A stretch of 33,044 bases of DNA, taken from Acidobacteriota bacterium (GTDB lineage Bacteria; Acidobacteriota; UBA6911). Positions 59 to 33,044 of the stretch are shown here, in pieces (the stretch's first letter is position 1; the number at the start of each line of letters is the position of its first letter). The position numbers and the translations under genes were made by a program. The notes beneath the pieces are model-generated. The model was not told the DNA's origin. It saw only the letters and a program-made list of their open reading frames with translations, and made no database searches. The stretch covers positions 1 to 33,044 of the forward strand of contig JAAYAJ010000023.1 of the NCBI GenBank assembly GCA_012719455.1. Direction: 5' to 3'.

Positions 59-712
59 ATGAAGCGTTTTTATGGTTTGCTTTTTGCTTGTTTGTTGCTG
101 GCGTTGCCTTTGACCGCCAATGCAGGTCCATTCTATTTTGGTTCAGGGACAATCAACGCTGCCGGCAGTTCGCCGACTGAATACAACCCCGGTGACGGAC
201 GAACATATTATTTGGATTACGATGGCAGTGTAACTATCGATGATTTTGAACCCGTCATTAACATCACCGATGCAGAACTCTTTTGCGTATCCGGCGTGAC
301 TTTGGATAGGAATAAACCGGACTATCTGTTTTACCAATTCGAAGATTACGAAAGAGCGGATTTTGCGAAGGCCACCTGGGTCGCTGACAACTGGACGACT
401 TTCATCACGGACAACCTAAGCCAGGACGTGAAAAAGGGTGAAGCCCAAAAGGCCATTTGGGCAATCATGGGAGTAATGAATATACTCGGTAACGACGGCT
501 GGGATCTCAGCCTTTTCAATGCCGCGTCCGCTACCCATGTAACCACAAATTGGCTTTGGGCAGAGAGCGTTCAAGGCTTAAGCCAGGATTTCCTGGTTCC
601 ATACGAATATCAGCTTCCCGGGGGTGATCTGCCCGAGGTTCCCGAGCCAAGCACGTTGATATTGCTGGGGTTGGGGCTGACCGGTATCGCTCTTTACAAA
701 AAGAAAAGATAA
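59..712 (+). CDS. PEP-CTERM sorted secreted protein with thioester-domain-like core
   Basis: A 217-aa protein exported and handed to the exosortase/PEP-CTERM sorting machinery. Visible parts: signal peptide (residues 1-22, hydrophobic run ending TANA), a globular middle, and a C-terminal tripartite sorting signal: VPEPST at about 194-199, a hydrophobic helix LILLGLGLTGIAL, and basic tail YKKKR. In the middle, FCV (Cys76) and AQKAIW (Gln130) resemble the paired Cys and Gln motifs of surface thioester domains, with an aromatic/Ala-rich ATWVADNW stretch between them; the thioester itself is inference. The start is set by GGGAGGG a few bases upstream. It has its own sigma-54-type promoter and terminator, so it is monocistronic. 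GC is lower than in the genes that follow. No exosortase gene is in the window. Confidence 0.9.
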   Translation: MKRFYGLLFACLLLALPLTANAGPFYFGSGTINAAGSSPTEYNPGDGRTYYLDYDGSVTIDDFEPVINITDAELFCVSGVTLDRNKPDYLFYQFEDYERADFAKATWVADNWTTFITDNLSQDVKKGEAQKAIWAIMGVMNILGNDGWDLSLFNAASATHVTTNWLWAESVQGLSQDFLVPYEYQLPGGDLPEVPEPSTLILLGLGLTGIALYKKKR

Positions 713-3283: not shown

Positions 3284-3595
3284 GCCTTCATTATAGTGGA
3301 GACAGTCACCGCTGTCCCCTTGCCTGCCGCCCGCCCCCGGTTCAGCCGGGGCGCAGGACATCGGCCTGAACGGGATCATGGCGCAGGTCCCCGGGCGGTT
3401 CCCCCCGGCGGCGGAATTCTCTCTCCCCGGCCCGTTTTCATAGTAAGATTTAATCCATCGCAGGATCGTGCCCGAAACCCTCAGCGGGAGAAAAATGACG
3501 CACATGGCCCATCGCTTTGAAACGGCAGCGTCGACACTGCTCCGCCATCCGGCGGACATCGTCGCCCGCAAACCCCTTTTTTCGGAGGATGTCCG
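3284..3595. other. Divergent intergenic region between NYN gene and ygiQ
   Basis: 312 bases with no supported gene. An AT-richer patch near 3436-3455 (around TTCATAGTAAGATTTAATCC) could hold a promoter toward ygiQ, but no clean -35/-10 pair is visible. A GGAGG ribosome binding site for ygiQ lies at 3584-3588. Confidence 0.4.
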
Positions 3596-5308
3596 CTGAA
3601 ACCCTTCCTGCCCACGACGCGCGCGGAGATGATCGACCGCGGCTGGGACGAGCTCGACGTGCTCCTCGTCACCGGCGACGCCTACGTCGACCACCCTTCC
3701 TTCGGGGCGGCCGTGATCGGGCGGGTGCTGGAGGCCGAGGGGTGGCGCGTAGGCATCGTCGCCCAGCCGGATTGGACGGATGCGGAAGCGCTGACGGTGA
3801 TGGGCCGTCCACGCCTGTTCTGCGGGATCACCGCGGGGAACCTCGACTCGATGCTGGCGCATTACACCGCCGCGCGGCGCCGGCGGCGGGAGGACGCCTA
3901 TACCCCCGGCGGCGCCGTCGGCAAGCGCCCCAACCTGGCTTCCATGGTCTATGCGCAGCTGGCCCGCAAGGCCTTTCCCGGCATCACGACGGTGCTGGGG
4001 GGGATCGAGGCCAGCCTGCGCCGCACGGCGCATTACGACTACTGGCAGGACAAGGTGCGCCCTTCCATCCTGGCCGACGCGAAAGCGGACATCCTGGTGT
4101 ACGGCATGGGGGAGCAGGCGGTCCGCGAAATCGCCCGCCGCTGCGCCGGCGCCCTCCCGCTGGACCGGATCCCGGGCACGGCCCGGATGCCGGGCGCCCG
4201 GGAGTCGGACGCGGATCGTTTTGCCGACTGCGTCCTCCTGCCGTCGCTCGAGGAGTGCCGCGCCGATATCCGGAAGGTGCGGGAGCTGACGCGGCTGACC
4301 GAGCGGGAGCAGAACCCCTTCGGCGGAAGGCCGCTGGTGCAGCGGCACGGCGCGCGCGCCGTGCGGATCGAGCCGCCGGCGCCCCCCCTATCCACGGAGG
4401 AAATGGACCGGGTCTACGAGCTCCCCTTCCTGCGCCTGCCTCACCCTTCCGCTGCGGAGCCAATCCCCGCCTTCACGATGATCCGCGACTCGGTGACCGT
4501 GGTGCGCGGGTGCTCCGGCGGCTGTTCCTTCTGCGGCCTGGGCCTGCACCAGGGTCGTTTCCTGTCGAGCCGTTCCGAGGCGTCGGTCCTTGGCGAAGTG
4601 CGGGCCATGGCGGCCGCGCCCGGTTTCAGCGGCACCGTCACCGACCTGGGGGGGCCGACGGCGAACCTGTACGGCTCCGTCAACGGCACGGCCGCCGCCT
4701 GCCGCGTGTGCCGCCGTCCCAGCTGCCTCTTCCCCTCCCCCTGCCCGCATCTCGAACGACGCCAGGAAGCGGCGGTCCGGCTCATGAGCCGGGTGCGGGA
4801 AATCGAGGGGGTGCGCCACGTGTTCATCCAGTCGGGCATCCGGATGGACGTGGCCCTGGAGAGCCCGGAATATATCCGCGCCCTGGCGCGCCACCACGTG
4901 TCGGGACACCTGAAGGTGGCCCCGGAGCACCTGCATCCCGGGACCCTGCGCAAGATGCGCAAGCCGGGCCCGGAAATCTTTTACGCCTTTCAGGAAGCGT
5001 TTGCGGCGGAAAGCCGCGCGGCGGGACGCCGGCAATACCTGGTGCCCTACTTCATCTCCAATTTTCCCGGCTCGACCTCGCGGGAGATGCGGGAGGTCGA
5101 ACGCTTCGTCCTCCGGGAAAACTGGAACCTGCAACAGGTCCAGGACTTCATCCCCCTGCCGATGACGCCCGCCGCCGCCGTCTACGCGACCGGTCTTGAT
5201 TATGAAACCGGCGCGCCCGTCCCGGTGGTCCGGGGACTGGCCGAGCGCCGCGAGCAGATGGGGCAGCTCCGGCCCCGAGCGCGGAGGGGTAGACGCCGTC
5301 GCTCATAG
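3596..5308 (+). CDS. ygiQ: YgiQ family radical SAM protein (CTG start likely)
   Basis: A radical SAM enzyme of the YgiQ/UPF0313 family; reaction unknown. The N-terminal B12-binding-like region contains the family block [15 protein letters not shown], followed by GGIEASLRR, and the radical SAM cluster motif [12 protein letters not shown] gives CxxxCxxC at Cys306, Cys310 and Cys313 (numbered from the CTG). [14 protein letters not shown] and the [13 protein letters not shown] block are also typical. The first ATG in frame is at 3629, but homologs begin about eleven residues earlier with FLPTTREEM; here [11 protein letters not shown] is encoded upstream with no ATG/GTG/TTG. CTG at 3596 lies seven bases after GGAGG (3584-3588), so I place the start there. 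Length 570 aa. The C-terminus is an Arg-rich tail. Confidence 0.9.
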
Positions 5309-14946: not shown

Positions 14947-15172
14947 GGCTTCACTGTTCGAAAAAGTGTTCACATTTTGCTGAGCGGGCAAAGGGCGTCT
15001 CGGGCCGCGGCGCAGCGATCGCCATGACGGGTCTCTGAAAACCCATTCCCGCGCTCTGTCCAGGAAACCGGCTATTTTGGCTGCTTGCGGTGCGGCGAAT
15101 GGTCCGGGAACAGATCCATTCGCATATCCCACAAGCTCATGTTCCATCGTGAAGGTACGAAAAGGGGGGGAT

Positions 15173-18100
15173 ATGAAAGGCAAACGAACACATCCCTGGC
15201 TGGCGGTCATCTCTCTGCTCGCCGTTGCCGCCATTTGTGGGCCATGGGCGTCGCCCGTCATGGCTCAATCCGCCGACACCGGGGCGTTGACCGGAGTGGT
15301 GAAAGATCCATCCGGATCGGTCATCAAGAACGCACGGGTCACGGCGACCAATCTCGGGACGGCTCAAAGCCGTTCGGCGCTTACGGACAACGACGGCTCC
15401 TTTAGAATCACTTTCCTGCCCCCGGGCAAATACAAGGTCCAGGCAGGCGCGGAAGGATTCCAGACATCCGAGTTCTCACCCATCACCATCAACGTCACCG
15501 AGACCGCCGTTCTGAACATGGACCTGAAAATCGGCGTGCCGACCGAAACGGTCACCATCGCAGCCGAAACGGAGCTCATTCAGACCACCACCTCGACTTT
15601 GGGGACCCTGGTCAGCGGGGACGACGTGGTGGCGCTGCCCCTGACCACGCGCAACTACACCCAGATCCTGGACCTTTCCGCCGGTGTCTCCGCCAGCGTT
15701 GCCAACGCGACGGAGCTTGGGAAAGGCACACAGCTGACGAGCGTCAACGGTTCCAGCCCCTCTCAGAACAATTACCAGATGGACGGGGTATCCATTAACA
15801 GCATCGCGGGCCTCGGCCATGCGCGGGACCACAACGTGGCCGCCGGCATCGGGATCCCGAACCCGGATGCACTCCAGGAATTCAAGATCCAGACCTCGAC
15901 CTACGATGCCAGCTACGGGCGGAACCCGGGCGCGAATGTCAATGTCGTCACCAAGTCCGGAAGCAATGAGCTGCACGGGACGGCCTTCTTCTTCCTGAGG
16001 GACACTGCGCTCAACGCCAACCCCTTCTTCTACAACCGTAACCGGCGGCCCGAGGACCCCGACAAGCCGATCCTGACCCAGAAGCAGTATGGCTTCACCC
16101 TGGGGGGACCGGTGCTGAAGGACAAGCTGCTCCTGTTCGGCAGCTGGCAGGGGTCGCGCCAGAAAAACGGGCTTGCCGGCGGAGGGACCGTGAACACCCA
16201 ATTGCCCCCCATCCCGGAGGGCGATCGCAGCGCACCCGGCTTTGCCGCCGCCCTGGCGGCGATGAACTGCGGGTTCAGCAATTGGGGCTGGGCCGGGGGA
16301 GCGAATGTCGCTTGCGACGGATCGAACATCAGCCCTGTCGTGCTCAACATCCTCAACCTGAAGCTCCCCGACGGCAGCTATTTTGTCCCCGGCTCCGGCA
16401 CCACCGGCTACACCCGGAGGACTTTCTCCATTCCGGCCCAATACAAAGGGGACCAGTTCCTGGCCAACGTGGATTACATGATCAACCAGCAGAACACGCT
16501 GTCGGGCAGGTTCTTCTACACCCGTGATCCCAGGATCATTCCCATGGGTTACGTCAACCTCCCCGGAAATCCCCAGACCAATTTCTATTCCAACCACAAC
16601 GTGGTGGGAAAGCTCACCACCTCCATCCGGAACAATCTGGTGAACGAGGTGCGTTTCGCCTACCAGCGGAACTGGGGCGATGTCTATGACGATGTGATCG
16701 ATGGAGCCACGCCCGCGGAGCTGGGCATCTACAGTCCCATTCCGGGCCAGGACCTCCCCCCCGCGATCTGGATCGTCGGCGGTCCCTACATGTTCAACTC
16801 CTTCCATCCCGCGCAGAGCCTGGGCGCCAGTTACCAATACGCCGACCAGATCTCGTGGTCCAGGGCCAACCACACCATCCGCGCCGGATTTGAATACGAG
16901 AGGGTACATTATTTTTCCAGGCCCGGGGCTTACCGGGGATGGCTGTATTATGGGACCTTCAATGACTTCCTGGTCAGCGGGCCGGGAAACATCTTCATGT
17001 CCGTGACCAACAAGGGAGACGGTCCGAAGGGGGAGTTTGACCACGATTACCGCCAGAACAATGCAAGCGCCTTCATCCAGGATGACTGGAAGGTCAGCCA
17101 AAACCTGACGCTCAACCTGGGGCTCCGGTGGGAATACAACAGCATGCTCAATGATTCCGTCGGCAACATGACCAGCATCTGGCCGAGCCGCCTGGCCACA
17201 GTTCCGGTACCCCCCAACGGGCCTACGACGTCGGGTGACGGGTTGGTGGGATATGTCGTCGCCAAAAACACGAATCCACTGTACGGGACTCCCCCGGAAG
17301 GGGTTTACGTGGCGGACAACAATAACGCCATCGAGGGCCATCCGCCCTACAGCAACTTCGGCCCGAGAATCGGTTTCGCATGGCAACCCACCGGCAAGGC
17401 CAACATGGTGGTGCGCGGAGGCTTCGGGATGTTTTACGACCGGGTGCAGGCGTACTACATGGTCCGCGCCTACCAGGAAAGCCCCCCGTACGCGGTTTCC
17501 CTGAGCTACGGACCGTTCAATCCCTACACCCTGGCAAACCCGTTTCCCGACCTGCCCACGGGATCCTATCCCTCCCGCTGGAGCACCCTTTCCTGCGACC
17601 CGGACGGCACAAACTGCCACGGCACCGGCTCCAATTTGAGCACCCTGTTTCTCAATCCCAAGGTCGACGTACCCCTGACTTATCAATACAACCTCAGCAT
17701 TCAGTATGAGCTGTTCCGCAACTGGGTGCTGGACGTGGCGTACGTTTCGTCGCACGGGACCAGGCTGATGAACTCGTACCGGAACGTCAACCTGGCCCAA
17801 TTGGCAAGCCCGGAGAACCCGATCAACGGCCAGATCGCCAACACCACCGCTAACGTGGGGCTGCGCGTCCCCCATATCGGTTATCAGCCGACCGGCCTGC
17901 AGGGTACGTTTTTCGATGCCAGGTCCAACTACCACAGCCTCCAGGCCACCCTGCGCAAGGCGTTCTCGCATGGACTGGCGATGCAGGCCTCCTACACGTT
18001 CAGCAAGAGCCTCACGACCCTGGGCGCCGGGGACAGCACGAACTCCAACGATCCGATGGACCAGGACCAGCAGTACGGCCCGAGCATTTGGAACCGGCCC

Positions 18101-18673
18101 CATCGCTTCATCCTGAACTATCAGTACGATCTCCCCTTCGGAACCCATGTGGGCATAAAGGGGAAACTCCTCAACGGCTGGAGCATTTCCGGAATCACCA
18201 CCATTCAAGCGGGTATTCCGCTGACCATCTCGGACAGCTCTGCGGGCAGCATTTTCGGGGCCAGCGGCGGCAGGGCGCAGCTGTGTCCCGGCGCCACGCG
18301 CAGCTCCATTCTGACCTCCGGCAGCCTTCACGAACGCCTGGGCGGGAAGAGCGGGGGGCCCGGTTATCTCAACGCCTCCGCATTCTGCGCGCCGCCCACC
18401 GGCGGGATCTACGGCAACGGCACCGGCTGGGGCAACTCCGGCGTCGGCATCGTTTCGGGTCCCGGCCAGCACAACTGGGATATTTCCATCATCAAAAACA
18501 CCCCGATACGGGAGGGCCAAAGCTTCCAGTTCCGGACGGAGTTTTACAATGCGTTCAACACTCCCCAGTTCGGCAATCCCGACACGCAGCTGCGCAACAG
18601 CACGTTCGGGCAGATCAACTCAACCAGCGTGGGGCCGCGCATCATCCAGTTCGGCTTGAAGTACCTTTTCTAG
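15173..18673 (+). CDS. Oar-like TonB-dependent outer-membrane protein with CarboxypepD_reg domain
   Basis: An 1166-aa outer-membrane protein. Signal peptide (1-29, ending SPVMA, next residue Q); carboxypeptidase-regulatory-like beta-sandwich (about 34-112: TGALTGVVKDPSGSVIKNA, FLPPGKYKVQAGAEGF); TonB plug region (about 120-270: LPLTTRNYTQILDLSAGVS, QMDGVSINS, QEFKIQTSTYDASYGRNPG, NVVTKSGSNELHGTAFFF); then a long beta-barrel rich in aromatic and Asn residues. The chain ends FGLKYLF, and a terminal Phe is the usual outer-membrane insertion signal. Such Oar-like proteins are highly expanded in Acidobacteriota; ligands are mostly unknown. The ATG at 15173 follows AAGGGGGGG. The gene has its own promoter about 220 bases upstream; the URO-D-like gene follows after 241 bases. 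Confidence 0.93.
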   Translation: MKGKRTHPWLAVISLLAVAAICGPWASPVMAQSADTGALTGVVKDPSGSVIKNARVTATNLGTAQSRSALTDNDGSFRITFLPPGKYKVQAGAEGFQTSEFSPITINVTETAVLNMDLKIGVPTETVTIAAETELIQTTTSTLGTLVSGDDVVALPLTTRNYTQILDLSAGVSASVANATELGKGTQLTSVNGSSPSQNNYQMDGVSINSIAGLGHARDHNVAAGIGIPNPDALQEFKIQTSTYDASYGRNPGANVNVVTKSGSNELHGTAFFFLRDTALNANPFFYNRNRRPEDPDKPILTQKQYGFTLGGPVLKDKLLLFGSWQGSRQKNGLAGGGTVNTQLPPIPEGDRSAPGFAAALAAMNCGFSNWGWAGGANVACDGSNISPVVLNILNLKLPDGSYFVPGSGTTGYTRRTFSIPAQYKGDQFLANVDYMINQQNTLSGRFFYTRDPRIIPMGYVNLPGNPQTNFYSNHNVVGKLTTSIRNNLVNEVRFAYQRNWGDVYDDVIDGATPAELGIYSPIPGQDLPPAIWIVGGPYMFNSFHPAQSLGASYQYADQISWSRANHTIRAGFEYERVHYFSRPGAYRGWLYYGTFNDFLVSGPGNIFMSVTNKGDGPKGEFDHDYRQNNASAFIQDDWKVSQNLTLNLGLRWEYNSMLNDSVGNMTSIWPSRLATVPVPPNGPTTSGDGLVGYVVAKNTNPLYGTPPEGVYVADNNNAIEGHPPYSNFGPRIGFAWQPTGKANMVVRGGFGMFYDRVQAYYMVRAYQESPPYAVSLSYGPFNPYTLANPFPDLPTGSYPSRWSTLSCDPDGTNCHGTGSNLSTLFLNPKVDVPLTYQYNLSIQYELFRNWVLDVAYVSSHGTRLMNSYRNVNLAQLASPENPINGQIANTTANVGLRVPHIGYQPTGLQGTFFDARSNYHSLQATLRKAFSHGLAMQASYTFSKSLTTLGAGDSTNSNDPMDQDQQYGPSIWNRPHRFILNYQYDLPFGTHVGIKGKLLNGWSISGITTIQAGIPLTISDSSAGSIFGASGGRAQLCPGATRSSILTSGSLHERLGGKSGGPGYLNASAFCAPPTGGIYGNGTGWGNSGVGIVSGPGQHNWDISIIKNTPIREGQSFQFRTEFYNAFNTPQFGNPDTQLRNSTFGQINSTSVGPRIIQFGLKYLF

Positions 18674-22064: not shown

Positions 22065-24083
22065 TCAATTCGACCCGCCTCCCGGACGCCCCCCCGTGAC
22101 GGTTTCCGCGATTTCGACATCCGTATGCAGCCTGGCGCATTCCGCCGAAGAACCGTCACAGATATCGATGACCAGGCCATAGCCGCCGTCAGCCAATTGC
22201 GGGAGCGACAATCGAAGGCCAACGACGGCTTCCCTTTTGTTCAGGACGGAGGCTTTGTCCTTCAATGATATTGGATTCAGCGGGTGTTCCCTTCCCTTTT
22301 CATCCACGAACCGGACCTTGGCCGTCAGGTCCCACGGATCCGTTGCCTGCCGCAGATTGTATACATGAAATACCACGGGGACCGTTCCCCCTCGAAACAC
22401 GAGGTTGTTCACGCCGGGTTCGACCTGCATTCCCGCATAGATCAGCGGGTCGTCTTCACTGAGCAATTGAGATTGCAGATCCCGGATCAGCTCGGGAATG
22501 CCCGATACTTGCTCCGCTATCGCGATGCTGCTTCCCGCCAATCCATGTGCAGGCCATGGCGGGATATCCAGTTCCTGTTCCCTGGAACCCAGATTGCCGC
22601 CTTCATCCGCCACAACCATCTTCAGGCGGTACTTTCCCGGACGAAGTCTTAGAAAATTGCGATAGGCCATTTCTTTGCTGCGGAATTCTTCTTCCTTTTC
22701 CCGGGGGAAATAGACCGGCAGGCTTTCGCTGAACCGGGCGGCGACATTTCCGTCGGCGGCATAGGCCGCCCCCATGATGTTTAGATCCGCGCCGTATTGC
22801 CCTTTCCTTTTCCGGAACCTCGCCTTGGCCAACTGAATCCTGGCCGCCACCATGACTCTCGCCATCTGCGGCGAATCGTAGAAATACAGCGGCCGGAAAC
22901 GGACGGGCAACTGATCCAACTCAACCGGGGAAGCCAGTGCATCCCTAACAGCCTTTTCCTGTTTGTCGCTGTCCGGATTGCCGGCGGAACGCGGCTCCTG
23001 AACTTCCTCTCCATACTGCAGGCTGATTCCCTTCAACTTCGTCCGGACCGAGACCTTATGATAACCGCCCTCCTTCCCCTTCGCGCCTGATTGATATCCA
23101 AGGATGTAATAATTGCTGATCTGTCGATCCAGCCCGTCCAGCCCGCTGTCGAGGGCATTCGTATCCAGAATGGAGTAGCCGCCGCTTTCCGTGGCCAGGG
23201 ACCGCAGAGAAATCGCCATGGACGGATCCGGCCTGTTCAATCCCCCGGGATCCACGGTGTAAAACACAACATTGGCTTTTCTCGCCGCTTCCAACAAGTT
23301 TTTGTAGGTACTCTCCTGGGTGCCCGACCCCCTGGAGGTCCGCATCGCAACGGGCCTTCTTCCTATGACATCTCCTATTCCAATCGAGGACAATTCCGGC
23401 AATTGAGAAAGACCGCCCGTGGAAAGCGCATCCTGCGCATAAACCAGGACTGTTTTCTGCCCGCGGATACGCCCCAGCGACGGAATTATCCCTGCGAATT
23501 CACGCAGAAGGTTTTCGAAATAAATCGGGCCGCCGCCCGCGTTGGCTCCGGCGGGAGATTCGACGGCTTCCAGCACCGCTTCCTTATCGCCCGTGAAATT
23601 CTGAAGAATCTGCATTGTCATGCCGAAGGCGGCCACGGCAAAGACATCCTGCGACCGCATGTTCCGCCGGATGAAATCGGCGGCGGATTTCCGGGCCGTT
23701 TGGATATATTCCGAACGAATCGCCGTATCATCGAAAACAATCAGAACGGTCTTCCCGCGGCTCAATGCAGACTCGTCCGTCAAGTTTATGCCCAACGCGG
23801 AATTTGCAGGCTGCGCATTCACTTCATCGAGGCTCAAAATCTCCCGCCTTTCGCCGTCTTCGAAAAGCTGAAAATCTTCCTTCGCGAGATTGCTCACCGG
23901 CTCCCCTTTTTTATCGAAAGCCATGACCTGAACGGTCGTCAGATCGACGTGAACACGAAAACGGACGGCGCCTTCCGATCGCGCTTCGGATGCTTCGGAC
24001 GGGATTTGACCGAAAACGTCATTCCATGATCCGGCCAAACCCAGGCACATAAATAAAAGAAATAAACGAATCCGGTTTCTCAT
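22065..24083 (-). CDS. Secreted VWFA-related acidobacterial-type protein (second of pair)
   Basis: A 672-aa exported protein. Signal peptide at 1-25 (LFLLFMCLGLAGS, ending near VFGQ). The N-terminal strand RFRVHVDLTTVQVMAFDKKG with LAKEDFQLFEDGERREI is the characteristic entry to the VWFA-related domain of Acidobacteriota, followed by TVLIVFDDTAIRSEY in the metal-site position, QDVFAVAAFG, KTVLVYAQDALS, FYTVDPGGLNRPD and SNYYILGYQSG. The rest (about 370-672) is beta-rich and unrecognised, ending in a Gly-rich tail. Function of the family is unknown; adhesion or protein-binding at the surface is a guess. Eight bases separate its ATG from the upstream paralogue's stop, and the AGGA ribosome binding site overlaps that stop. 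Confidence 0.87.
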   Translation of the reverse strand: MRNRIRLFLLFMCLGLAGSWNDVFGQIPSEASEARSEGAVRFRVHVDLTTVQVMAFDKKGEPVSNLAKEDFQLFEDGERREILSLDEVNAQPANSALGINLTDESALSRGKTVLIVFDDTAIRSEYIQTARKSAADFIRRNMRSQDVFAVAAFGMTMQILQNFTGDKEAVLEAVESPAGANAGGGPIYFENLLREFAGIIPSLGRIRGQKTVLVYAQDALSTGGLSQLPELSSIGIGDVIGRRPVAMRTSRGSGTQESTYKNLLEAARKANVVFYTVDPGGLNRPDPSMAISLRSLATESGGYSILDTNALDSGLDGLDRQISNYYILGYQSGAKGKEGGYHKVSVRTKLKGISLQYGEEVQEPRSAGNPDSDKQEKAVRDALASPVELDQLPVRFRPLYFYDSPQMARVMVAARIQLAKARFRKRKGQYGADLNIMGAAYAADGNVAARFSESLPVYFPREKEEEFRSKEMAYRNFLRLRPGKYRLKMVVADEGGNLGSREQELDIPPWPAHGLAGSSIAIAEQVSGIPELIRDLQSQLLSEDDPLIYAGMQVEPGVNNLVFRGGTVPVVFHVYNLRQATDPWDLTAKVRFVDEKGREHPLNPISLKDKASVLNKREAVVGLRLSLPQLADGGYGLVIDICDGSSAECARLHTDVEIAETVTGGRPGGGSN

Positions 24084-24091
24084 CGTTTTTC

Positions 24092-25840
24092 CTATGGAAT
24101 TTCGATCGATTTGACAGCCGATCCCATCTTGCCCTGATTGCCCTCGCGCACCACCGCCTTGAGAGTATAACGTCCCGCAGGCAGGTTCAGCTCGACACGC
24201 GACGTCAATCCCCGGTTTAAAAGACCGGCGTAGCTGGATTCGAGCAGACGGAAATCGATGATTTTTTCAAGGCCGTTGATAAACTGCCCGGCTTCATCAT
24301 AGGCAGCCAACACGAGGCTTACCTGGTTGACGTTCCGGTCTTCTTCCAGGATAAATCCCAGGTCTTTCACGGGGACATGGGTCATGCAGGACACGGTATA
24401 GAGCGCATCTTCGTTCCGGAAATAGTCGTAAGCAATGGACATCTCAATCTCATCCATGTCGCCCGGCGCATGTAAAGCCGCCATGATGTCTTCCCGCCTT
24501 GAAGTCTCAACAACCATTTCTTCTTTGGGCGTGTAATATCCTTTGCGATAGGACAATTTCAACCCGGGGCGCAACGCTTCAAGCCGGACCGAATGGCGGA
24601 GGCCGTTGGCGGGATGAGCCGGCATTTCATAGGTCAGCACGTAGTAAGTCGACTGCTTTTCCGAAATCGTCTTCAGCGGCCCAAGCAGGTCGTTACCCTG
24701 AAAGAACATCCCGCCCGTCTCTTCCGCCATCTGCGCCAGAGCGGCGTGCTTTGCCTGCCTGTCGTCCTCGCGCATGGGGGTCATAACCGTCTCGATGATA
24801 TGGAAATCCCTGAGATTCTCCGTCAGGATATCCATGCCGTCTCGCATATCATCGTAACCTGTCAGGCCGCGGGTGCTCACCGTGTGGAGCGCAATATCGG
24901 CGCCCAATGCCGTATTTACGACGTCCTGCATTTTATAGGCGACCTTCCTTCCCGCTTTTGCCACGAACCCGTCCGAGAAGATCACCAGAACCTTGGTTCC
25001 CTTAAAATGCCTCAGGACGCGCAGGTGCTGCAGTATCGTGTGCAGAAGACCGTCGGTCCGGAATTCAAGGCCATCTTTGGTTTGCATTGCGAAATGCCAG
25101 AGCAGCTCTTCATTTGTGCCTTCGGCGAACTCATTGTTTGTGTTACACAGAAGATCGAGACTCTCATAGTAATGACTATACCGGTTCGGGTTGGTAGATA
25201 TGTTCCAGGCTTCAAGATCCGTCATGTATCGGCAGAACCGGAACGGCAGATTGATATTCAGCATATACGGGAGCGAATCCAGCTCCTTCAGCAGCCTTTG
25301 CCTGTCACTTGAAAAACCGAACTGAACCTTGCGGGAGCCGGACAACAGGGCGACCTGATCGGTATCGGCCAGATGGTTTTTTACGAATTCCTTTGCGGCA
25401 TTCACAATACGGGGGAAATCCTTCACCGATTCCATCGCAAGATCATCGATCACGATGGAGATCATGCGCGGGGGTTGTTCCGCCTTCTCCTTTGAATCGC
25501 TCCGGTCCTTCGATAAGACGTCCGGGCCCCCCCCGGTATCCGATTCCGTGGGCCCGGCTGTTTCCCTTGCAAAGGTCCGGATGACTTGCGGCTTTCCATC
25601 GTCATAAACTCTGAAGTCATCTGCCGTCAAATCCGCTACAGGCCGGCCGGCCTTATCCGTAGCTTCCACCCTTACCACAACTGTATTGACACGCACTTTA
25701 TAGGACGACGAGGCCGCAGGTTCATTTTCCCTGTCCCCTTTCTTTTCCCTTGAAGAAAGCGGCGCGCTGGCAAAAATGATCAGCAGCAGGCCCGGCAGGA
25801 TTTTCGAGGAAATCCGGAGGCAACTCCCGGAATAAGCCAT
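24092..25840 (-). CDS. Secreted VWFA-related acidobacterial-type protein (first of pair)
   Basis: A 582-aa exported protein with the same plan as its downstream neighbour. Signal sequence around 10-30 (ISSKILPGLLLIIFASAPLSS); entry strand YKVRVNTVVVRVEATDKAGRP and LTADDFRVYDDGKPQVI; RMISIVIDDLAMES; DQVALLSGSRKVQFGFS; KVLVIFSDGFV; ALHTVSTRGLTGYDD; ETGGMFFQGNDLLGPLK; QSTYYVLTYEMP; and the typical LEALRPGLKLSYRKGYYTP closing block. I chose the ATG 25838-25840 because GGAGG lies eight bases upstream and the signal peptide follows; the frame open 43 codons further is not supported. First gene of a two-gene operon. The two paralogues are too different to be a recent duplication. Confidence 0.88.
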   Translation of the reverse strand: MAYSGSCLRISSKILPGLLLIIFASAPLSSREKKGDRENEPAASSSYKVRVNTVVVRVEATDKAGRPVADLTADDFRVYDDGKPQVIRTFARETAGPTESDTGGGPDVLSKDRSDSKEKAEQPPRMISIVIDDLAMESVKDFPRIVNAAKEFVKNHLADTDQVALLSGSRKVQFGFSSDRQRLLKELDSLPYMLNINLPFRFCRYMTDLEAWNISTNPNRYSHYYESLDLLCNTNNEFAEGTNEELLWHFAMQTKDGLEFRTDGLLHTILQHLRVLRHFKGTKVLVIFSDGFVAKAGRKVAYKMQDVVNTALGADIALHTVSTRGLTGYDDMRDGMDILTENLRDFHIIETVMTPMREDDRQAKHAALAQMAEETGGMFFQGNDLLGPLKTISEKQSTYYVLTYEMPAHPANGLRHSVRLEALRPGLKLSYRKGYYTPKEEMVVETSRREDIMAALHAPGDMDEIEMSIAYDYFRNEDALYTVSCMTHVPVKDLGFILEEDRNVNQVSLVLAAYDEAGQFINGLEKIIDFRLLESSYAGLLNRGLTSRVELNLPAGRYTLKAVVREGNQGKMGSAVKSIEIP

Positions 25841-26339
25841 TTCCCCCACCTCCTTGCTATAATCCCTGTAAAACATCAGGATAAAAGGTTTGCCGGTTGT
25901 GGGGCGGGCGCTCCCGCCTCCCAACCTCGCCGCCGTACGGTGAACATCCAGAAAGGATTCCCGCATCAAGTTGGTTCAACCTGCGCTTGGTTCCACCCAC
26001 ATGACCCGGCAAATTGCTGTTTTATTCCCTATGGATTGTTCATGTGATAGGCATAAGCTTCTTCATGCATGCCATCACAGGAGTACGCCGCACCTTCCAA
26101 TACCGTAATATACAATCATAGATAACCTGGGGGGCGATTATGTTCAGTAATTATTGAGGTATGTGTATCTCTGCGCCATTCTGGGCTGGTATTCCCGGCG
26201 AGTGCTTTCCTGGAGACTTTCGATGCCGGCTATGTCGAATACCGCGTCGGGGATGCCGGCATGTTTATGACGGGCAGGCGCAGGATCCGGTTCCGCCAGG
26301 CGGTCCGATGAATGACCCAATACCAATGGGTGGAGCGAC
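25841..26339. other. Intergenic region with possible coding remnant
   Basis: About 500 bases without a complete gene. The 5' part (25841-26000) is the likely promoter region of the VWFA operon. In the right part a plus-strand frame ending at TGA 26309-26311 reads FLETFDAGYVEYRVGDAG and then MFMTGRRRIRFRQAVR with mostly G/C third positions, but it lacks a start codon and any family match I know; it may be the 3' remnant of a lost gene. Confidence 0.35.
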
Positions 26340-31983: not shown

Positions 31984-33044
31984 TCAATATTCGATCTTGA
32001 GGGCTTTCATCTTCCGGTACAGGGTGCTGGGGTCGATCCCCAGCTGGGCCGCCGTCCTGCGCCGGGAGCCGCGGTGGCGCCTGAGCGCCGCGCTGATCAT
32101 CAGCTTTTCCATCGCCTTGAGCGACATGGGATTGCCGCCGTCCGGGGGCGCGGGCCGGAGTTCGGCCGGCAGGTGGTGGAGTTCGATCATGCGTCCGCGG
32201 CAGAGAACGAACGCCTGTTCGAGGATGTTCTCCAGCTCGCGCACGTTCCCCGGGTATTCGTATTCCATGAGCCGGGCCATGACCTCTTCGGACACCCCCT
32301 CGATCTCCCGCCCCTGGATCCGGTTGAATTTCCCCACCAGGTGCTCGACGAGCAACGGGATGTCCTCGCGCCGCTGGCTGAGGCTGGGGAGACGCAGGCT
32401 GACCACGTGCACCCGGTAGTAGAGATCTTCGCGGAACACCCCGTCCCGGACCAGTTGGCCGAGATCGCGGTGGGTGGCGGCCACCACGCGCACGTCGACC
32501 TTCATCGGTTCCACCGAGCCCAGGGGCTCGATCGTGCGCTCCTGCAGCACCCGCAGCAGCCGGACCTGCATCGCCGGCGAGACGTCGCCGATTTCGTCCA
32601 GGAAGATGGTGCCGCCGCTGGCCAGGGCGAAACGCCCCGGCTTGTCGCGCCGGGCGTCGGTAAAGGCCCCCGCCTTGTGGCCGAACAGCTCGCTCTCGAG
32701 CAGGGTGTCGGGGAGCGCGCCGCAATTGACGGTGACGAAGGGCTTGCTCCTGCGCGGTGACAGGTGGTGAATGGCGCGGGCGAACAGTTCCTTCCCGGTC
32801 CCGCTCGCCCCCTCGATCAGCACGGTGCTGGTACTGGCGGCGATCTGAGGCAGGAGCTCGAACAGCTTCTTCATGGGGGCGCTGTACCCGACGATGTCCT
32901 CGAAGGTATAGCGCGCCTTCAGCTCCTTCTGCAGCTGCTCGATGGAGCTGAGGTCCTGGAAGGTCTCCACCCCCCCGATCACCTCCCCGTCGTTGTCCCG
33001 GAGCAGGGCGGTGGAGATGCGGATGGGGATGCTCTCCCCGCTGC
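31984..33044 (-). CDS. Sigma-54-dependent transcriptional activator (5' end outside window)
   Basis: The last 352 codons of a Fis-type enhancer-binding protein; the frame stays open to the window edge, so the N-terminus is missing. The visible start is the end of a PAS-like domain (SIPIRISTALLRDNDGEVIGG). The AAA+ domain follows: Walker A GASGTGKELFARA, the sigma-54 contact loop reading GAFTDA instead of the usual GAFTGA, Walker B GTIFLDEIGDV, and arginine-finger region with YPGNVRELENIL. The Fis-like helix-turn-helix is RRRTAAQLGIDPSTLYRKMK at the end. Whether a REC domain lies before the PAS cannot be seen. It may serve the kinase three genes away or the PEP-CTERM promoter elsewhere (both inference). 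Confidence 0.92.
   Translation of the reverse strand, partial: SGESIPIRISTALLRDNDGEVIGGVETFQDLSSIEQLQKELKARYTFEDIVGYSAPMKKLFELLPQIAASTSTVLIEGASGTGKELFARAIHHLSPRRSKPFVTVNCGALPDTLLESELFGHKAGAFTDARRDKPGRFALASGGTIFLDEIGDVSPAMQVRLLRVLQERTIEPLGSVEPMKVDVRVVAATHRDLGQLVRDGVFREDLYYRVHVVSLRLPSLSQRREDIPLLVEHLVGKFNRIQGREIEGVSEEVMARLMEYEYPGNVRELENILEQAFVLCRGRMIELHHLPAELRPAPPDGGNPMSLKAMEKLMISAALRRHRGSRRRTAAQLGIDPSTLYRKMKALKIEY

Follow-up and report, generated by a model that had tools for sequence, protein, structure and literature searches.

The thioester-domain-like gene at the window edge

The window, by which we mean the whole 33,044-nt stretch of DNA analysed here, carries near its left end an open reading frame that begins with ATG (59–712, + strand) and encodes a 217-residue PEP-CTERM protein with a thioester-domain-like mature region. 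Residues 1–22 (MKRFYGLLFACLLLALPLTANA; 59–124, + strand) constitute a predicted signal peptide, which was read by eye and whose boundary is inferred. At the C-terminus is an exosortase sorting signal composed of VPEP, a hydrophobic segment and KKKR (638–709, + strand). This tail exceeds the cut-offs of both PF07589 (29.5 bits, cut-off 20.7) and TIGR02595 (29.3, cut-off 16), confirming the assignment as a PEP-CTERM protein made in an earlier, sequence-only reading of this DNA. All matches of the protein to Pfam and NCBIfam models, at E-values up to 10, fall within the tail.

Three short motifs, all encoded on the + strand, are evident between the signal peptide and the tail: (i) FCVS, within ELFCVSG, conforms to [YFL]C-Phi-zeta and contains Cys76 (284–286), the candidate thioester cysteine; (ii) QKAIW, within EAQKAIW, spans Gln130 to Trp134 (446–460, with the Gln130 codon at 446–448) and is the equivalent of the TQxx-Phi-W helix motif and (iii) QDFL, from Gln176 to Leu179 (584–595, with the Gln176 codon at 584–586), conforms to Q-zeta-Phi-Phi and supplies the candidate thioester glutamine. 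The sequence-only reading had singled out Cys76 in FCV and Gln130 in AQKAIW, and both are indeed present in the frame. Cys76 precedes Gln130 by 54 residues and Gln176 by 100, and Gln176 lies 18 residues ahead of VPEP. When the mature window sequence is shuffled, a cysteine motif followed by Q-x-A-[IV]-W arises 2 times in 200,000, and the three-motif pattern 12 times in 200,000.

Cys76 is the only cysteine in the region that follows the signal peptide. An intramolecular disulfide is ruled out by this single cysteine in the mature part, and a role as lipobox cysteine is ruled out by its position 54 residues past the signal peptide.

The gene is followed by an intrinsic terminator hairpin with a T run (732–766, + strand). 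The segment 730–772 folds at −19.4 kcal/mol (z −5.8), and none of 200 shuffles folds as well. Positions 1–127 of the window, at the end of the contig, recur in reverse complement at the start of contig C102. This overlap of exactly 127 nt has the appearance of an assembly k-mer break. With the two contigs joined there, the next open reading frame upstream, on C102 (513 aa; L014, 451–1992), has the same orientation as the gene.

A sparse family with four invariant mature residues

The family consists of 20 full-length PEP-CTERM proteins, including the window protein (P0001), and was drawn from searches covering the window's phylum and the phylum of genome G396. A search with the window protein against 396 genomes of its phylum matched seven genomes at E-values up to 0.001. 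Beyond its own gene, these matches involve either the C-terminal part only or the copy of the gene start in the C102 overlap, and both kinds were dropped from the family. One genuine relative emerged when genome contigs were scanned. It is encoded in the record titled 'Deltaproteobacteria bacterium ADurb.Bin151' (L013, genome G396) and is 40% identical to the window protein over the best segment, residues 1–200.

A two-sequence profile (A2) found the L013 gene alone among 395 genomes of the G396 phylum at E-values up to 0.01. Within the window's order (15 genomes) it found relatives in two genomes besides the window's own, and within the class of G396 (155 genomes) in three, G396 included; one match in the order (G298) and three further matches in the class were spurious and were dropped. 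Profile A4 found relatives in 6 of 297 genomes of the G396 phylum. Profile A6 found them in 4 of 277 genomes of the window's phylum, the window's own being one of the four, and, when the class of G396 was searched again, in 9 of 155 genomes, one of which (G920) holds a fragment. Four candidates at E-values of 0.08–0.23 (L028, L031, L032 and L033) were excluded because their frames lack both the motifs and a PEP-CTERM tail, and L069 (E 9.3e-4) was excluded because its contig holds just the C-terminal end. Relatives were not found in the viral contigs scanned, and tblastn searches of plasmids with P0001 and P0003 gave no match. The family is sparse, occurring in 1–2% of the sampled genomes per phylum, with higher frequencies in individual groups such as the window's order (3 of 15).

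The family is probably present in two phyla, since the host of the window looks acidobacterial and the L013 record is titled Deltaproteobacteria. The genomes listed in the two phylum samples do not overlap. Two adjacent VWA proteins encoded in the window (22065–25969, − strand) match TIGR03436 (acidobact_VWFA), which points to an acidobacterial host. The window also encodes a large beta-barrel protein of the outer membrane that has a CarboxypepD_reg domain (15077–18673, + strand; PF25183, 607 bits), which is evidence that the host is a diderm.

Identity to the window protein ranges from 19 to 46% across the alignment of the 20 members. The columns invariant in all of them are Cys76, Gln130, Trp134, Gln176 and two prolines of the tail, so that the mature domain has these four invariant residues and no others. 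Conservation of both Cys76 and Gln130 among homologues, set beforehand as a test of the sequence-only reading, is thus complete. A single cysteine is found in the mature domain of 19 members, and P0003 has two. The spacing from the cysteine to the first glutamine is 44–62 residues and to the second 99–129, and the second glutamine sits 6–18 residues ahead of the VPEP position.

The residue before the candidate bond cysteine is F or Y in all 20 members, in agreement with the Bond-Cys motif. After the second glutamine come D or N (20 of 20), a hydrophobic residue (19 of 20) and another hydrophobic residue (20 of 20); a hydrophobic residue precedes it in fewer than half of the members, and the window protein has Ser there. 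In the TQxx-Phi-W motif the glutamine and tryptophan are retained throughout, with Thr before the glutamine in L066 only and Ala at this position in the window protein. The tails of 17 members pass PF07589, and those of P0004, L039 and L068 are below its cut-off; L068 reads VPIPAA where the others have PEP. The three-motif pattern was also sought in 463 distinct open reading frames of 100 aa or longer, taken from the window and from the sampled loci other than plasmid loci. It is present in 13, every one a family member; this count is a specificity check and no independent test, because the spacing limits were set after the relatives had been seen.

Phylogeny of the family

In the tree, the window protein falls into a clade with proteins of genomes G818 and G396 (support 100/98), apart from members of its own genus (G266 and G113). 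The window-phylum label changes four times on the tree, with at least three of the changes forced by supported branches, and its clustering is no greater than that of shuffled labels. Several rows are long-branched, which makes the deeper forks unsure. Horizontal spread of the family is likely; the competing account would be that the members are ancient paralogues.

At L013, a transposase-like open reading frame (3440–4813, identified by eye) lies 210 nt upstream of the gene for the nearest relative, and two more PEP-CTERM genes are found near that relative. The transposase-like frame and the PEP-CTERM neighbors fit a mobile history.

Probable relationship to Gram-positive thioester domains

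Three family members exceed the cut-off of 22 bits for the thioester domain (TED) model PF08341: P0003 (28.2 bits), L070 (27.3 bits) and L064 (25.9 bits), with library-wide E-values of 2.7e-6 to 1.4e-5. The TED of the pLS20 protein Tie scores 25.9 bits by this model. Matches to PF08341 below the cut-off, at 13.1–17.6 bits, are seen for P0004, L036, L041, L049, L065, L066 and L067, and L038 matches TED_2 at 14.7 bits (cut-off 27). Nine of the 20 members, the window protein among them, match neither TED nor TED_2 at E-values up to 10 or 1; for the window protein, PF08341 gives no match at E-values up to 10 and the curated score is not reached.

The window protein is connected to the matching members by profiles. 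A profile that leaves out its three-member subfamily (the window protein and its two nearest relatives) finds it at 34.5 bits and E 1.3e-9 among 1017 open reading frames, with the best non-family frame at E 0.67. Five of the first eight non-family frames in this search are Gram-positive TEDs, at non-significant E-values of 0.67–3. A smaller profile, built from six relatives (five match TED, three of them above the cut-off), finds the window protein at 20.2 bits (E 2.7e-5), with the best non-family frame at 0.23; it misses L068.

Direct comparisons are less decisive. The hhalign comparison of the family with ten class II TEDs is non-significant (probability 2.5%, E 0.019), with cysteine placed on cysteine. 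Against the family HMM, seven of these ten TEDs each score at a level that no more than 5 in 200 shuffles attain, at values of no more than 7.3 bits and with displayed alignments that span the Cys motif only. Sequence searches of the PDB with A2, A4, A6 and P0003 matched no TED, and a match to a tail nozzle (E 0.36) was put down to chance. PF08341 found nothing in 297 genomes of the window's phylum, a result of little weight since the control genomes were silent as well. AlphaFold models computed with two sequences were unusable, both at full length (pLDDT 35.3) and for the mature domain (pLDDT 32.8).

The published TED motifs occur in order in the window protein, as FCVS, AQKAIW and QDFL. Taken with the three relatives above the Pfam cut-off and the invariance of the Cys and both Gln, the case from sequence for a predicted exosortase-sorted TED in a diderm is well supported, and this part of the sequence-only reading stands.

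Among known systems, a close likeness is to the class I TEDs of TIE proteins (PF08341; SfbI, PnTIE, CpTIE and Cpa), which share the [YFL]C-Phi-zeta motif, the Q/W helix motif and the late Q-zeta-Phi-Phi, as well as the combination of a secretion signal with a surface sorting signal. The window protein differs from them in its diderm host, in having PEP-CTERM in place of LPXTG and in the absence of a stalk of isopeptide or ester domains. The Cys–Gln spacing also differs, at 99–129 in the family versus the 129 (CpTIE), 152 (SfbI) and 153 (PnTIE) given in PMC4450167. Similarly, the cysteine and late glutamine (YQRLM) of Tie, a class II TED protein of the Bacillus subtilis plasmid pLS20, correspond by motif; its Cys68 is described as essential for its role in conjugation, and its TED as needed for efficient conjugation (PMC8092201). 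Unlike the window protein, Tie has 778 residues, Cna-like stalk domains, a TED of class II and no typical sorting signal, and its Cys–Gln spacing is 188 residues with the glutamine taken from the model in that paper (PMC8092201). Internal Cys–Gln thioester chemistry, predicted here, is shared with complement C3 and alpha-2-macroglobulin, which are described as having no kinship to bacterial TEDs in sequence or structure (PMC6194298). The CxEQ motif ascribed to complement-type thioester proteins in PMC8416519 is absent from the window protein.

Predicted sorting and regulation

An exosortase (PF09721) is present in the window's genome (G000), on contig C101 and outside the window, and passes the XrtA model TIGR03109 (225.4 bits, cut-off 208). 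The XrtA-type locus (L044, 24–13000) encodes proteins above the cut-offs for XrtA, EpsI, PrsR (574.1 bits, cut-off 502.6), PrsT (1337 aa), two exosortase-associated acyltransferases and the PepA floc protein (128.1 bits, cut-off 80). PrsK is below its cut-off (233.8 bits versus 300), and the stretch is cut at its end.

A sigma-54 (−24/−12) promoter-like site, TGGCAT-ACTAT-TTGC (10–24, + strand), starts 49 nt 5′ of the ATG. It is the best site within 150 nt upstream (p 0.002 versus 500 block shuffles). Comparable sites are found for 15 of 18 testable family genes, the window gene included (p ≤0.012 each), when the best site in 126–150 nt of upstream sequence is compared with block shuffles. All of these sites, including that at 10–24, were scored with weights that we set ourselves and against the −24/−12 consensus. 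No sigma-54-like site was found in the 126–150 nt scanned upstream of L027, L065 and L067; L049, with no clear start, and L064, with just 55 nt of upstream sequence, fall outside the testable set.

The exact string TGGCA-N6-TTGC occurs within 200 nt for 9 of the 12 first-found family members and for 4 of 15 other PEP-CTERM genes that pass the start filter (L041, L004, L006 and L023). Of 2094 segments of 200 nt chosen arbitrarily from these loci, 26 contain the string, family sites included. PEP-CTERM genes that bear the sigma-54 string without thioester motifs outline a PrsR-like regulon. A comparable arrangement is described for pepA of Aquincola, which has a −24/−12 promoter motif, is RpoN1-dependent and has a part in floc formation (PMC9850573). 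Like PepA (NF033554), the window protein is a PEP-CTERM protein whose gene has a −24/−12 motif and a terminator after it (PMC9850573), but its mature domain differs and it reaches 26.7 of the required 80 bits, through the tail only.

At the other end of the window, a sigma-54-dependent activator is encoded at 31984–33042 (− strand) and is truncated by the window end. Its best NCBIfam match is NifA (350.5 bits, below the cut-off of that model), and it scores 307.7 bits against the PrsR model TIGR02915 (cut-off 502.6).

Identity of the putative bond glutamine and alternative explanations

Conservation within the family cannot discriminate between Gln130 and Gln176, each of which is retained in 20 of 20 members, and the choice of partner for Cys76 therefore rests on homology to TEDs. 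The TQxx-Phi-W sequence, which the majority of TEDs but not every one possess, is described as an alpha-helical motif whose glutamine and tryptophan are dispensable for the thioester (Walden et al. 2015, PMC4450167), and Miller et al. 2018 agree that the helix-motif glutamine is dispensable for the bond (PMC6194298). Gln176 in QDFL matches the TED bond glutamine in order and place. Ten Gram-positive class II TEDs all retain the cysteine and a late glutamine at domain residue 214, which by offset corresponds to Gln256 of Tie. They share one further invariant glutamine, at residue 133, and have none between residues 26 and 133, the stretch in which the helix motif would be expected. By homology, the thioester probably joins Cys76 to Gln176 and not to Gln130. 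Our preferred explanation, to which we assign a probability of about 0.7, is an exosortase-sorted protein whose mature part would be a single TED, homologous to those of Gram-positive bacteria, with a Cys76–Gln176 thioester used for covalent attachment.

The sequence-only reading had instead paired Cys76 with Gln130 and made no mention of Gln176, now the expected partner. This pairing has in its favor the invariance of Gln130 and its position 54 residues from Cys76, but it assigns the bond to the helix-motif glutamine, which in characterised TEDs is dispensable for the bond (PMC4450167, PMC6194298) and in whose stretch the ten class II TEDs hold no invariant glutamine, while their late glutamine is invariant. 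In both low-confidence models, Cys76 also belongs to a strand and Gln130 lies within a long helix, with Gln176 in a three-residue helix (full length) or in coil before a short strand (mature domain), although we give them no weight. Overall, a Cys76–Gln130 bond appears very improbable. We would be nearly as surprised if the family were unrelated to TEDs, with motifs that are convergent and Pfam matches that are fortuitous. The non-significant comparison with class II TEDs, the lack of a PDB match and the nine members without a TED match would all be expected in that case, but three members exceeding a curated cut-off at E-values of 2.7e-6 to 1.4e-5, seven sub-threshold matches to the same model and three motifs in their published order would not.

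It is also conceivable, though unlikely, that the fold derives from a TED and no longer sustains a lasting thioester, with Cys, Gln and Trp kept for packing or for, e.g., ligand binding. The failure of the window protein to match the Pfam TED model agrees with such a fold. Against it, the invariant residues are exactly the two expected of the bond together with the helix-motif Gln and Trp, down to 19% identity, and 19 of 20 members have a single mature cysteine. A further question is where a genuine thioester would act. Instead of attaching the cell to a foreign surface, it could help to assemble the matrix by cross-linking either exopolysaccharide or further PEP-CTERM proteins, a variant that we count inside the preferred explanation and consider to have somewhat less than an even chance. 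The protein has no stalk and its Gln176 is just 18 residues from VPEP (6–18 in the family), and a sigma-54-like site and an XrtA/PrsT/PepA locus are present, as in floc systems. The SfbI TED, which is described as singling out one Lys in a host protein (PMC4450167), speaks against this variant.

A proposed model for covalent attachment

The preferred explanation, a sorted TED with a Cys76–Gln176 bond, suggests the following sequence of events. After export, Cys76 and Gln176 would form the internal thioester spontaneously, releasing ammonia. The thioester would then be attacked by a nucleophile of the target, such as the amine of a Lys or, in a polysaccharide, an amine or hydroxyl group, and this nucleophile would become covalently linked to Gln176. 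XrtA would process the PEP-CTERM tail, and PrsK/PrsR together with sigma-54 would turn the gene on alongside matrix genes. In this way the protein may hold cells to the extracellular matrix or to surfaces. We consider the extracellular matrix, with attachment either inside it or to it, a more likely setting than the binding of a foreign protein because of the missing stalk and the matrix-type regulatory setting.

TEDs have been described as occurring 'exclusively in Gram-positive bacteria' (Walden et al. 2015, PMC4450167), and in the open-access literature searched we found no description of a TED with a PEP-CTERM signal or of a covalent matrix cross-linking thioester in a diderm. A Pfam TED annotation of the cut-off-passing members probably already exists. 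A broader and more tentative proposal is that stalkless TEDs, horizontally spread, exosortase-sorted and switched by PrsR and sigma-54, may provide a covalent glue binding cells or proteins to exopolysaccharide in the flocs and biofilms of at least two diderm phyla; we consider this possible but below even odds by a clear measure. If the TED and its exosortase signal are real, covalent adhesion chemistry would reach the diderms, and some of the PEP-CTERM proteins of unknown role would gain a function for their mature domain.
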